Of a stretch of 64,000 nucleotides of DNA, positions 52,701 through 57,717 are shown in pieces. Source of the stretch: Denitrovibrio acetiphilus DSM 12809 (GTDB lineage Bacteria; Chrysiogenota; Deferribacteres; Deferribacterales; Geovibrionaceae); the NCBI RefSeq assembly GCF_000025725.1, contig NC_013943.1:1674001-1738000 (forward strand). Reading direction: 5' to 3'. The translations under genes were made by a program, and so were the position numbers. Each line of letters starts with the position of its first letter. Position 1 is the stretch's first letter. Below the pieces are notes generated by a model, which saw only the letters and a list, made by a program, of their open reading frames with translations, did no database searches and had not been told where the DNA came from.

Positions 52701-53375
52701 ATGAGAATTCTTCTTGTTGAAGATGATTTCGATTTATCAGAAAACATTATAGACTTCCTTACAGACTGTGGGTACGACTGCGATTTTGCGTATAACGGTA
52801 TCGTTGCAGTAGACCTCATCAAACAGAATCCCTACGACCTTATAATTCTGGATATAGGCCTCCCCGGGATAAACGGCTTTGAAGTATGCAGGATAGTCAG
52901 ACAGGATCTTAAACTGAATACTCCTGTGATTATGCTGACTGCACTAATATCTCTGGATGATAAACTATCCGGCTTTCAGGCGGGCACAGATGACTATCTG
53001 CCCAAACCGTTCGACATGCCGGAACTTCAGGCAAGGATAGAAGCTCTGGCAAAAAGAACAAGACCTGTACAAAACCATGTACTCACAGTGGGCAGTCTCG
53101 TATACGACGTTGAACAGGGTATCCTGACAAGGAACAACATAGAACTTCAGCTGCCTCCGGTATGTATGCATATATTGCGTATACTCATGGAAGCATCTCC
53201 TAACCTTGTTTCCAAAAGCGAACTGGAATATGCTATATGGGGACATACTCCGCCGGAAACCGATGCCCTTAAAGCACATCTCTATACGCTGAGGAACATA
53301 ATAGACAAACCTTTTAGTAAAAACATGCTCGTTACTGTCAGAGGACAGGGATATAAAGTTGTGGCATCCGAATGA
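52701..53375 (+). CDS. OmpR-family response regulator
   Basis: 224 residues: a receiver domain with VEDD and phospho-acceptor Asp51 (LILDIGLPG), and lysine of PKPFDMPEL at the expected place, then a winged-helix domain ending VTVRGQGYKVV. The kinase gene follows with a 4-base ATGA overlap. The TMAO reductase gene lies just beyond the kinase, so this pair is the best candidate to control it. Confidence 0.93.
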   Translation: MRILLVEDDFDLSENIIDFLTDCGYDCDFAYNGIVAVDLIKQNPYDLIILDIGLPGINGFEVCRIVRQDLKLNTPVIMLTALISLDDKLSGFQAGTDDYLPKPFDMPELQARIEALAKRTRPVQNHVLTVGSLVYDVEQGILTRNNIELQLPPVCMHILRILMEASPNLVSKSELEYAIWGHTPPETDALKAHLYTLRNIIDKPFSKNMLVTVRGQGYKVVASE

Positions 53376-54733
53376 TGAAAGCTGTCAAGTCTCTACGGAT
53401 AAAGATAATCATGGTATTTGCCGGATTCAGCTTTCTGCTCGGTTTCGCGCTTCTAATGGTAATCCTGATTGCAACTCAATACACTGAAGAATACACTCTG
53501 AAAAAACGTCTGCACCTTGAAACAGAAAGATATGTTAAATCAATAGTAAGCTCCCCCGTATCACCCGGAGCAGTTAGCTATGAAGCACCAGTTCCGAAAT
53601 CGTCACTTCTAACCAGCTACATAGGTGATGAGCTTTTACCCGAATGGGCATACAAGGAATTATCCTCACTCCCCGAAGGTGAATACAAAAAACAACACGA
53701 CAATCAGATTTATTATATCACCATAAGCAATCTGGCGAACCATCAGCGTTTCTATCTTATATATAACGTCACAACTATGCTTTCGGGGCATGAAAACATT
53801 GCTATAACAAGAAAATACTTCATGCTTACACTGTTTCCAACTTTCTTTATAGGGCTTCTGTTGGGCATCATTACAGCTTACAAAGCGGTCTCCCCTGTTA
53901 TCAGGCTTTCCAGTATCATCAAAAAAGCTGAGCAGAACAACACTACGCCTGAAAACTTCTCAGCGGATTTTGGTGATGATGAAACCGGTTTTCTTGCTAG
54001 AACTCTCGAACATTCTATAAAAGGAATGCAGTCTTCAATAGACAGAGAAAAAGCTTTTGCAAGGGATGCAAGCCATGAACTGAGAACACCTGTAGCAATC
54101 ATAAACGGTGCCGCAAGCCTTCTGCAAAAAGAGCTGGACGAATCAGATGAAAAAAAACTGGGACTACTTGCAAGAATCAACCGCGCAAACAAAACCATGG
54201 AACATCTGATAAACTCTTTTTTGTGGCTGTCCAGACAAGAAAAATACCATGCTGTTGGAGCAAGTAAAACATCTGTCGTTGTTAAAGAAGTTGTAGAAAA
54301 CATGAACTATCTTGTACAAAACAAACCGATAGAAATTATTGTAGAAGAACTCGAAGAGTCTATATTACCTGTTACCCCCCCTATCCTTTCAATATTAGTG
54401 GGAAACCTGCTGAGAAACGCAATTTCCTATACTGTTGAAGGGAGCGTGGTTATAAGTATATATGAAAAATGTATCGCTGTTAAAGATACAGGACCAGGGA
54501 TACCTAAAGACATACTGAATAATCTTAATATAGCCAACGGTGTACCTCAGGCAGACGGGTTCGGTTTTGGTCTGTCTATTGTTCATCGCATATGTTCGCA
54601 TATAGGCTGGAAGCTAATGATCGACTCAGAAGAGATGAAAGGGTCAACAGTTGTTTTGTGCTCAAGAACTCCAAACAAAAAGACCTGTCTAACCCCCTGT
54701 AAAAAAGGGCAAAAAGATAATACCTTTACCTGA
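53372..54733 (+). CDS. Sensor histidine kinase, partner of the OmpR-type regulator
   Basis: 453 residues. Helices at about 11-33 and 150-172, a periplasmic domain of about 110 residues, HAMP-like linker, HisKA with His235 in DASHELRTPVAIING, and HATPase with NLLRNAISYT, KDTGPGIP and GFGFGLSIVHRI. It is a classical kinase rather than the hybrid TorS type. It ends 76 bases before the torA-like gene. Signal unknown; the location suggests TMAO or a related N-oxide. Confidence 0.9.
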   Translation: MMKAVKSLRIKIIMVFAGFSFLLGFALLMVILIATQYTEEYTLKKRLHLETERYVKSIVSSPVSPGAVSYEAPVPKSSLLTSYIGDELLPEWAYKELSSLPEGEYKKQHDNQIYYITISNLANHQRFYLIYNVTTMLSGHENIAITRKYFMLTLFPTFFIGLLLGIITAYKAVSPVIRLSSIIKKAEQNNTTPENFSADFGDDETGFLARTLEHSIKGMQSSIDREKAFARDASHELRTPVAIINGAASLLQKELDESDEKKLGLLARINRANKTMEHLINSFLWLSRQEKYHAVGASKTSVVVKEVVENMNYLVQNKPIEIIVEELEESILPVTPPILSILVGNLLRNAISYTVEGSVVISIYEKCIAVKDTGPGIPKDILNNLNIANGVPQADGFGFGLSIVHRICSHIGWKLMIDSEEMKGSTVVLCSRTPNKKTCLTPCKKGQKDNTFT

Positions 54734-54808: not shown

Positions 54809-57193
54809 ATGACAATAAACCGCAGATCATTTATCAAAATGGCAAGTGCAGCTATGGCTTCCCTTGCATACACACCAGATATTTTTGCATCAGGCGATGA
54901 AACACAGATAATAACTCACGCGACACATATGGGCCCCCTGAAAGGGTATGTCAAAAATGGTAAACTGGAAAAAATACTCGCATCAGAACACGATTTTGAC
55001 CCTGTAGACCTGATGTTCAGCCTGAAAGAAGCAACGTACTCCCCTACACGAATTAAGCAGCCCTGCGTGCGTAAAAGCTACCTCGACGGTTCTGACAAAA
55101 GGAACCTGCGCGGTGCTGAAGAATTTATTCAGGTGAGCTGGGAAAAAGCTTTGGATCTCACAGCTAAGGCTCTTCAGGATGTTAAAAGGATTTATGGTAA
55201 TGAGTCTATATTCCGTACCTCATATGCAAGATGGTCTCACCCTGGACATATACAGCAGCCGGCAAATCTTCTCGGGCGCACACTGGGGCTTTTCGGCGGG
55301 TTTACGGATGTTGTCGGAGACTACTCAGCCGGTGCATCTGTTCAGGTTCTACCATATATTGTAGGGGACTCTGAGGTCTACAGCATGCAGACATCCAGAG
55401 AAGTGGTGCTGGAGAACGTAGAGCTTATCATGATGTGGGGGCTGGATCCTTTTAAAACAAGTAAAATAGACTACAATGTGCCAGACCACAGTACAAAAGA
55501 CTGGTTCCTGCAAATGAAACAGAAAGGGGTGCAGTTTATCACAATTGACCCTACAAAAAATCTGACAACAAGAAAGCTGGACTCAGAATGGGTTCCTATT
55601 AAAGCCGCTACCGACGTAGCTATGATAATAGGCATGTGCCATACATTATATACTGAGAACTTGTATGACAAAGAGTTTATAGCGAAATATACTGTTGGGT
55701 TTACTGCTTTCAGCAAGTATCTAACCGGAGAACACGACGGCATAGAAAAAACTGCTGAGTGGGCAGAAAGCATCTGTGGAGTACCTGCCGAAAAGATTAA
55801 GCAGCTTGCAAGACTTGCTATGACGAAACGAACCACGATTACAGGGAGCTGGGCTCCACAGCGTATCCACCACGGCGAACAATTTCACTGGAGTCTTGTC
55901 GCTCTCGCCAGCATGATAGGTCAGATAGGATTGCCAGGTGGAGGCTTCTCTTTCAACATGCACTTTTGCGGTGCCGGCACATCCTACAGCGGAGCTAAAA
56001 GACCACTGCTTATCCCGCAGGGACGTAACCCGGTAAACACACTCATACCTGCATCCAGAATGGGCGACACGTTTTTGAACCCAGGCAAAACAATAGACTA
56101 TAACGGAAGTAAACTCACTTACCCTAATATTAAACTACTCTACTCCGCCGGACTGAACCCTATCGGTCTACAGCCTGATTTAAATAAGTTAATTGAGGGC
56201 TGCAAAAGAATTGAACATATCATCACCAATGAACCATGGTGGACGCCAACAGCAAAATTTTCAGATATTGTTCTGCCCGTCACTACGAGTTTCGAAAGAG
56301 ATGATATCGCATTCGGCAGTTCATACGGAGTTGAGCACTTATGGGCTATGAAACAGCTGATATCACCATTGTTTGAAGCAAAAGATGACTTCTGGGTATT
56401 TCGGGAGATATCAAAGAGGCTAGGGTTCGAAAATGAATTTACAGATGGAAAGACCATAGAGGAATGGATCAGATGGAGTTTTGAGATGAGCCAGCCGTCT
56501 GTTGACTTTGAAACTTTCTGGGAAAAAGGCTTCGTTTATAACATGACTCCGGAAGAGAATAAAAAATATATAAGACACTCGGAATTCAGAGCAAATCCGC
56601 AAAAAAACCGCCTGAGTACTCCTTCCGGACGCATTGAGCTTTTCTCTGAAAAGATAGCCTCCTTCGGATATGAAGACTGCCCCGGATTTCCTAAATGGAT
56701 AACTCCGGCAGAAGGAATAAACTCTTATGCAAGCAGAAGATTTCCGTATCACCTCATAACACCGCACCCCATGTACAGACTTCACTCTCAGCTTGATAAT
56801 ACCAGAGTAAGCAGAGATCATAAGTTTGACGACAGGGAACCGATGTACATAAATCCTGAAAACGCAAAACAGCTTGGAATTTCACACGGAGAAATTGTTG
56901 AGGTTTACAACAATAGGGGACATATGCTCGCAGGAGCTTTCCTGACAGAAAATATAGTAAAAGACTCAATTGCAATAGATGAAGGTGCGTGGTATGCTCC
57001 TGAAAATCCGCGGGAGAAAAACTCAAGATGCCTCTCAGGACAAGCGAACATACTTACGTCAGACAGACCGTCATCTAAACTTGCGCAGGCAACGACTTCA
57101 AATTCCTGTATGGTAGGCATAAGAAAAGTTAAAGGGAGAATAAAAAGAAACACGGCTTACGATGAGCCGGACATAAGGAAAGGTGATCTATAA
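54809..57193 (+). CDS. torA: TorA/BisC-type molybdoenzyme, probable trimethylamine-N-oxide reductase
   Basis: 794 residues. The N-terminus has a twin-arginine signal (NRRSFIKM), so the enzyme is folded with its cofactor before export to the periplasm. It has no N-terminal iron-sulfur cysteines, as in TorA, DorA and BisC. The molybdenum-coordinating serine is Ser173 in GDYSAGAS, the same motif as TorA. Later conserved blocks include MMWGLDPFKTSKIDY, GSWAPQRIHHGEQFHW and PMYRLHSQLDNTR. AAGGAG lies 10 bases before the start. The next gene encodes a cytochrome that shares an overlapping stop/start. Substrate assignment to TMAO over other N- or S-oxides is by family. Confidence 0.88.
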   Translation: MTINRRSFIKMASAAMASLAYTPDIFASGDETQIITHATHMGPLKGYVKNGKLEKILASEHDFDPVDLMFSLKEATYSPTRIKQPCVRKSYLDGSDKRNLRGAEEFIQVSWEKALDLTAKALQDVKRIYGNESIFRTSYARWSHPGHIQQPANLLGRTLGLFGGFTDVVGDYSAGASVQVLPYIVGDSEVYSMQTSREVVLENVELIMMWGLDPFKTSKIDYNVPDHSTKDWFLQMKQKGVQFITIDPTKNLTTRKLDSEWVPIKAATDVAMIIGMCHTLYTENLYDKEFIAKYTVGFTAFSKYLTGEHDGIEKTAEWAESICGVPAEKIKQLARLAMTKRTTITGSWAPQRIHHGEQFHWSLVALASMIGQIGLPGGGFSFNMHFCGAGTSYSGAKRPLLIPQGRNPVNTLIPASRMGDTFLNPGKTIDYNGSKLTYPNIKLLYSAGLNPIGLQPDLNKLIEGCKRIEHIITNEPWWTPTAKFSDIVLPVTTSFERDDIAFGSSYGVEHLWAMKQLISPLFEAKDDFWVFREISKRLGFENEFTDGKTIEEWIRWSFEMSQPSVDFETFWEKGFVYNMTPEENKKYIRHSEFRANPQKNRLSTPSGRIELFSEKIASFGYEDCPGFPKWITPAEGINSYASRRFPYHLITPHPMYRLHSQLDNTRVSRDHKFDDREPMYINPENAKQLGISHGEIVEVYNNRGHMLAGAFLTENIVKDSIAIDEGAWYAPENPREKNSRCLSGQANILTSDRPSSKLAQATTSNSCMVGIRKVKGRIKRNTAYDEPDIRKGDL

Positions 57194-57717
57194 ATAAACT
57201 AGTTCTTTTATTATTTTTTATTTCATTTGCAGTTTTTGCATATGCCAACACTAAGATGTTTACAAGTTCTCCAATTCAGCTTTCTAACTATAGTGCCGAA
57301 GCCATAGTTTATGACGGTACGCTAATCGAAGCTGTAAAAACCGAAAATGGCTTCAATGTTAAGCTGAGTGTCTGGGTGAATGAACAAGGTGAGCTTTACA
57401 TTGATCCTAAGAATAAACTTCTGGCAGGACACATTCTTTCCGGAGAAAACGTATATAATGCAAAAACAGAATTTGTGGGAACGGTTGATAAAGAATCTCT
57501 GACAGCCGACATCAGAAAAGCTCTTGCTCCGGCTGAAAATCTTTATTATGAAAGATGCGGAACTTGTCACCGTGCGTTTGACCCAGTCAAATATACTAAC
57601 ACAAGATGGCTTGCAGTGATGCAATCAATGAAATCACAGGCAGGTCTTTCAGAAGATGAATATAAACAGATAGTAAGATATCAACACATCTTGACATATT
57701 ATGAAGTCAGCTATTAG
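57190..57717 (+). CDS. Exported monoheme cytochrome c, TorC C-terminal-domain-like, apparent ATA start
   Basis: The frame reads NKLVLLLFFISFAVFAYA, a complete signal peptide, only if translation begins at the ATA at 57190. There is no ATG, GTG or TTG between the in-frame stop at 57184 and the first internal ATG at 57256, which lies after the signal peptide. AAGGTGA precedes the ATA at proper spacing, and ATA overlaps the torA stop as ATAA, where ATGA would be usual. The protein (175 aa) has one heme site, CGTCH at 123-127, in a sequence like the C-terminal domain of TorC/TorY (YYERCGTCHRAFDPVKYT). It likely passes electrons to the reductase. Confidence 0.75.
   Translation: MNKLVLLLFFISFAVFAYANTKMFTSSPIQLSNYSAEAIVYDGTLIEAVKTENGFNVKLSVWVNEQGELYIDPKNKLLAGHILSGENVYNAKTEFVGTVDKESLTADIRKALAPAENLYYERCGTCHRAFDPVKYTNTRWLAVMQSMKSQAGLSEDEYKQIVRYQHILTYYEVSY

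Follow-up and report, generated by a model that had tools for sequence, protein, structure and literature searches.

A conserved candidate AUA start codon overlapping the torA stop codon in a cytochrome gene of Denitrovibrio acetiphilus and its relatives

The window, a 64,000-nucleotide stretch of the Denitrovibrio acetiphilus DSM 12809 genome (NC_013943.1, positions 1,674,001 to 1,738,000 of the forward strand), lies within a single contig of 3,222,077 bases and carries, in one direction, a two-component regulatory pair, a torA-like reductase gene, and a small c-type cytochrome gene (Table 1). The reductase protein matched the Pfam domains PF00384, PF01568, and PF18364 and scored 898 bits with the NCBIfam bisC_fam model and 701 bits with the torA model. 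Both scores are under the respective cut-offs, and therefore the substrate is not fixed by these matches; on this sequence evidence the protein is a TorA/BisC-family enzyme.

Table 1. Features at the torA/cytochrome junction, in window positions.
Feature	Positions	Strand	Basis or remark
Two-component response regulator and histidine kinase, 5′ of torA	52701..54733	+	PF00072, PF00486, PF00512, PF02518
torA-like molybdopterin N/S-oxide reductase gene	54809..57193	+	Open reading frame; stop TAA 57191-57193
Shine-Dalgarno site AGGTGATC within the end of torA	57181..57188	+	In-register match of 8 nt, aligned as in infC
In-frame stop TGA on the 5′ side of the cytochrome frame	57184..57186	+	Sequence; no canonical start from TGA to ATA
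Candidate ATA start codon, 4-nt ATAA overlap with the torA stop	57190..57192	+	Sequence; ATA/ATT in 5/5 loci
Predicted Sec signal peptide (M)NKLVLLLFFISFAVFAYA	57190..57246	+	Hydropathy and model; end set by eye
First canonical in-frame codon, ATG	57256..57258	+	Initiation at this codon would leave out the signal peptide and some of the first predicted strand
Monohaem c-type cytochrome (CGTCH), 175 aa from ATA	57190..57717	+	Stop TAG 57715-57717; PF09626

The cytochrome matched PF09626 with 22.7 bits (cut-off, 22.2 bits). Its haem region is weakly similar to the C-terminal part of the profile of the pentahaem E. coli TorC, but the score of 36 bits is far below the family cut-off of 478 bits, and the protein has one CGTCH motif and not five haem motifs. 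The predicted signal peptide has a mean Kyte-Doolittle hydropathy of 3.06 across 11 residues. A structural model built from five sequences (mean pLDDT, 83.5) comprises a low-confidence helix at residues 2 to 16, a beta domain at residues 21 to 99, and three helices, with low confidence over the first 20 residues (block means, 69 and 59); according to this model, a protein begun at 57256 would lack part of the first strand. A search of solved structures with the cytochrome returned a single weak match (3u99; E value, 0.0057), and a fold search found no match at an E value of 0.001 (best, 0.14). In its layout, the gene pair resembles the Campylobacter TorA/BisA system, in which a periplasmic N/S-oxide reductase adjoins a 189-aa Sec-exported monohaem cytochrome that is expected to act as its electron donor (PMC10653797). 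The accessible part of that report mentions no unusual start. By analogy, this system suggests that the window cytochrome may be an electron donor to TorA.

The junction between the two genes is compact. In the cytochrome frame, the stop TGA at 57184-57186 precedes TCT ATA AAT AAA CTA GTT, with ATA at 57190-57192 followed by NKLVLLLFFISFAVFAYANTKM, and no ATG, GTG, or TTG occurs in this frame between that stop and 57256. The original prediction held that this ATA is an apparent start overlapping the torA stop as ATAA, that the signal peptide is whole only if translation begins there, and that a ribosome site has been kept. The sequence bears out each of these points: the first ATG lies past the signal peptide, and AAGGTGA is present at 57180-57186, with an anti-Shine-Dalgarno match (AGGTGATC) of 8 nt at 57181-57188. 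The predicted RNA fold of 57140-57230 is not notable (z score, -1.09).

A search of 12 family genomes at an E value of 1e-100 identified 16 TorA matches in 9 of them, which a midpoint-rooted tree split into two groups of eight loci each (A and B). A cytochrome of the window type (type A) follows torA at five of the eight group-A loci, namely, the window locus (L018) and loci L019, L020, L021, and L022, while none is found within 700 bases after the group-A torA of L023, L024, and L027. Locus L027 belongs to D. acetiphilus itself. When 50 genomes of the phylum were searched with a profile, relatives of the cytochrome (E value, 1e-8) turned up in nine genomes, all from the same family. The other two genomes of the genus (G001 and G002) gave neither a TorA match at an E value of 1e-100 nor a cytochrome match at 1e-3.

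At none of the five type-A loci does an ATG, GTG, or TTG occur in the stretch from the preceding in-frame stop to the core of the signal peptide. The junction codon is ATA in L018, L019, L020, and L022 and ATT in L021. It overlaps the torA stop, in the same direction, as ATAA in L018 and L022, as TAATA in L019 and L020 (where a second ATA comes next), and as TAATT in L021. A lysine or arginine within two codons of the junction codon, a hydrophobic stretch, and the CGTCH motif are present in every case. The first canonical codon comes at codon offset 22 in L018 and 24 in L022; at offset 53 in L019 and L020, which is beyond the CxxCH haem motif at 42; and at offset 7 in L021, where a GTG falls inside the hydrophobic core. 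The cytochromes of L019 and L020 differ with a Ks of 0.80 and a Ka of 0.071 (Ka/Ks, 0.088; first 36 codons, 0.097), and this extent of synonymous divergence with little protein change indicates purifying selection on the reading frame that begins at ATA. The middle beta domain is missing from these two proteins, which retain the haem motif together with the start codon and the signal peptide.

The TorA of L018 branches off from the seven remaining group-A proteins (support, 100/98), which would place the weak start on both sides of that split, L018 being a long branch and the tree being rooted only at its midpoint. Two genera carry the torA/cytochrome pair, and the junction of L019 to L021 is shared by descent, leaving approximately three independent cases. 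The cytochromes linked to the paralogous group-B torA have a canonical start at all eight loci: ATG in L025, L026, L028, and L029 and TTG in L030 to L033. The start of L026 lies in an ATGA overlap. In L031 and L032, the start was assigned by eye to the TTG closest to the signal peptide, and another TTG lies six codons earlier.

The Shine-Dalgarno site of the window cytochrome is exceptionally strong. Its duplex energy with the 16S rRNA tail, which was found twice in the D. acetiphilus genome, is -17.1, a value equalled by none of 209 ATG genes (median, -7.0) and by none of 326 in a larger sample. Strength at the near-cognate starts is nevertheless mixed: L022 reaches -11.9, as strong as which are 13 of the 209 ATG genes, and L019 to L021 have an ordinary -8.2 each, matched by 86 of the 209 and by 5% of 600 random sites. 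In a sample of 864 kb, or 27% of the D. acetiphilus genome, 81 gene pairs overlap by -4 or -1 with ATG, GTG, or TTG, and only two genes passed the same filter with another codon, the cytochrome (ATAA) and a cation-efflux gene (GTAA). A further survey took in positions where neither the stretch back to the upstream stop nor the next 10 codons hold a canonical start. An in-register anti-Shine-Dalgarno match of at least 6 nt was found at 20 such positions, 18 of which are on codons outside the near-cognate class; the sole ATA, ATT, ATC, or CTG cases are infC, whose stretch had been added to the sample on purpose, and the window cytochrome, both with ATA and 8-nt matches. The codon, its overlap with the torA stop, the Shine-Dalgarno site, the conservation, the purifying selection, and the lack of another plausible start are features of the sequences themselves.

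Several other readings of this junction have to be weighed. The original prediction allowed for a recent loss of function, in which ATG has become ATA in a decaying cytochrome gene, and for a sequencing error, and a single base does separate ATAA from ATGA. Decay is very unlikely, however, given that ATA or ATT recurs at the same junction in all five loci, that Ka/Ks between L019 and L020 is 0.09, and that all five cytochromes keep CGTCH. A sequencing or assembly error at 57192 has a next to negligible probability: ATG is also missing at this place in four assemblies of other species, and the D. acetiphilus N2460 genome is described as finished, with 3,222,077 bp, 35.3x coverage, and a stated error rate of less than 1 in 100,000 (PMC3035293). 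The comparison with relatives that the original prediction had proposed, with ATGA as the form to look for, gave no ATG at the type-A junctions of four relatives, of which three have ATA and one has ATT. If ribosomes shifted into the -1 frame as torA ends, a TorA-cytochrome fusion would result and no start would be required; the cytochrome does lie in the -1 frame and touch the torA stop in all five loci. Yet the last codons before the stop (CTA, CTG, CTG, CTC, and AAA) form no common slippery heptamer by eye, the in-frame TGA at 57184 leaves an overlap of only two codons at the window locus, and a fresh signal peptide comes after the junction, all of which render this mechanism highly unlikely.

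The weak codon might instead be a by-product of selection for TAA as the torA stop, in which case coupling alone would suffice and the codon would be neutral. TAA ends torA in all five loci, and the ATAA overlap forces NTA in two of them. We regard this account as improbable, as L019 to L021 start within TAATA or TAATT, where ATG and TAA are compatible. Since these junctions could be TAATG with TAA intact, an arrangement present in 15 gene pairs of the 864-kb sample, the torA stop does not force the missing ATG in these relatives. The earlier proposal that ATAA derives from ATGA and saved the stop may therefore apply at the window locus, but it is not needed for the three relatives with TAATA or TAATT. 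The long retention of AUA or AUU although ATG is a single base away, and would fit the overlap in L019 to L021, argues that the weak start itself is being selected.

We consider it quite probable that the cytochrome begins at a conserved weak AUA/AUU codon of the IF3-sensitive class, served by a Shine-Dalgarno site, probably coupled to torA, and yielding little product relative to TorA. The AUA at 57190 would be read by the initiator tRNA as fMet. AUA is among the near-cognate codons against which IF3 discriminates, and initiation would therefore be weak; the strong Shine-Dalgarno site in the last torA codons would make the codon workable, and ribosomes that have just finished torA one base further on would probably assist. 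As a result, the exported electron-donor cytochrome would be made at a low, fixed ratio to TorA, and this ratio might respond to the IF3 level. The rare start invoked in the original prediction thus recurs as AUA or AUU at all five junctions, and the coupling that was thought to sustain it is suggested by the overlap.

The use of AUA for initiation, its low yield, the coupling to torA, and a response to IF3 are inferences, and every start described here is deduced from DNA. IF3 speeds the dissociation of noncanonical initiation complexes (PMC8266586). According to the available text of a Staphylococcus aureus study (PMC13009471), infC of that species has an AUA start and is likely autoregulated as in E. 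coli, and AUA or AUU starts with an extended Shine-Dalgarno site gave approximately 10% of the output of an AUG reporter, with ccpN reaching up to 30% in rich medium; the near-cognate starts of ccpN and cvfC1 are conserved. On the basis of this literature on AUA, AUU, and IF3, AUA is expected to lower the cytochrome yield, with the Shine-Dalgarno site and the overlap securing some of it. The window start resembles those of S. aureus ccpN and citZ (AUA) and cvfC1 (AUU) in combining a near-cognate codon with an extended Shine-Dalgarno site and, putatively, low output. The S. aureus cases belong to another phylum and were demonstrated experimentally, whereas the window start is deduced from DNA, and the accessible part of the report describes no stop/start overlap among them (PMC13009471). 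The cytochrome is likewise similar to infC, which also has AUA behind AGGTGA; the two D. acetiphilus genes read AAAGGTGATCTATA and GGAGGTGACCTATA, respectively, in the same register. The infC gene, however, feeds back on its own factor, while the product here is an exported cytochrome whose start overlaps an upstream stop. In its -4 (ATAA) or -1 (TAATA, TAATT) overlap and its Shine-Dalgarno site within the upstream gene, the junction resembles termination-reinitiation pairs (PMC6728339, PMC12548453), although the pairs named in the available text are ATGA and TGATG (PMC6728339) and the type described here uses AUA or AUU. Two studies recounted in PMC12548453 differ on IF3: in one, its overexpression reduced coupling, and in the other, coupling in vitro depended on it. 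Any IF3 effect on the cytochrome could accordingly have either direction.

A start-codon survey covered 27%, and later 39%, of the D. acetiphilus genome together with 400 kb from each of two relatives, with hits checked in relatives. Within 1,264 kb of the D. acetiphilus genome (1,007 gene calls), the ab initio combination of Shine-Dalgarno site and near-cognate codon was unspecific by itself, flagging AAA in 11 genes and GCT and ACA in 5 each, next to 3 genes with ATA, 3 with ATT, 1 with ATC, and none with CTG. Hits were retained only if confirmed in relatives. By codon-usage gain, the cytochrome was unflagged in the first pass and had gains of 1.0 and 0.3 in later passes. Four candidates were dropped: an NqrF-like gene (L171, 6724) with a canonical ATGATG further in, a RimM-like CTG candidate (L087) that has an ATG, and L134, which has an ATG start (MKKPLIL), all by eye, as well as a transposase remnant without a start (L096, 6837-7604; Mu-transpos_C_2). 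Further rows of the survey include L130 (CTG, 85 aa) and L159 (ATA), and the G006 survey gave 10 rows, one of which pointed to fliP.

Four other genes of the lineage have candidate near-cognate starts in several genomes. The infC gene starts with ATA behind GGAGGTGA or GGAGGTAA in all 12 genomes searched, each of them from this order (L060-L071). The hflX gene (TIGR03156; G000:C1:426729-428477, minus strand, in D. acetiphilus; L146-L157 and L210-L227) starts with ATA or ATT at 28 of the 30 loci read: 11 ATA and 1 ATT among the 12 family loci and, among 28 more matches in the wider order, 11 ATA, 5 ATT, and 2 ATG at the 18 whose loci were read. The two ATG codons stand at the aligned position and thereby mark it as the start. 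Codon 437 of the ATT copy, L151, is an in-frame stop and this copy may be broken, the ATA of L154-L157 was set by eye one codon ahead of the aligned stretch, canonical codons are also present further upstream in L152, L153, L157, L212, L213, L220, and L222, and, on visual inspection, several order loci (L217-L219 and L221) have a poor Shine-Dalgarno site. The fliP gene (TIGR01103; G000:C1:315312-316049, plus strand; L198-L209 and L228-L245), which lies behind a fliO-like gene, starts with ATC at 4 and ATT at 8 of the 12 family loci, with an ATG about five codons in at three loci of the D. acetiphilus genus and a TTG there in L201. The order contributed 26 further fliP matches, 18 of which had loci read by eye: between 9 and 11 start with ATT or ATC, 9 of them with no canonical codon before the hydrophobic core and 2 (L233 and L236) with a TTG or ATG at its edge, while 6 have ATG or GTG and 1 (L245) is ambiguous. 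The CDF cation-efflux gene (TIGR01297; G000:C1:2923-3843, minus strand; L114-L125) overlaps its upstream gene and has ATC (seven) or ATT (one) with no near canonical start at all eight loci of the D. acetiphilus genus and the genus of L019 to L022, and canonical codons in the other four relatives. This case is weaker because the reading frame of the upstream gene also constrains the start bases, and the overlap codon (GTA, GTA, ATA, and five CTG) is a rival start with worse Shine-Dalgarno spacing. In the partial literature collection searched, no title or abstract opening dealt with this cytochrome or with hflX starts.

These genes invite the speculation, which we hold to be doubtful, that infC, hflX, fliP, the torA-linked cytochrome, and the CDF gene form an IF3-responsive translational regulon in the Deferribacterales. 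AUA, AUU, or AUC starts, several overlapping the end of the upstream gene, would have been kept over long times, and the level of IF3, set by the AUA start of infC itself, would tune these genes together. If true, such a regulon would tie factors acting on the ribosome (IF3 and HflX) to respiration, motility, and metal efflux. For annotation, gene callers restricted to ATG, GTG, and TTG would clip the cytochrome to a leaderless fragment and, in two relatives, past the haem motif. The candidate near-cognate starts in several genes of this lineage would make IF3 control outside infC testable in a cultured organism.
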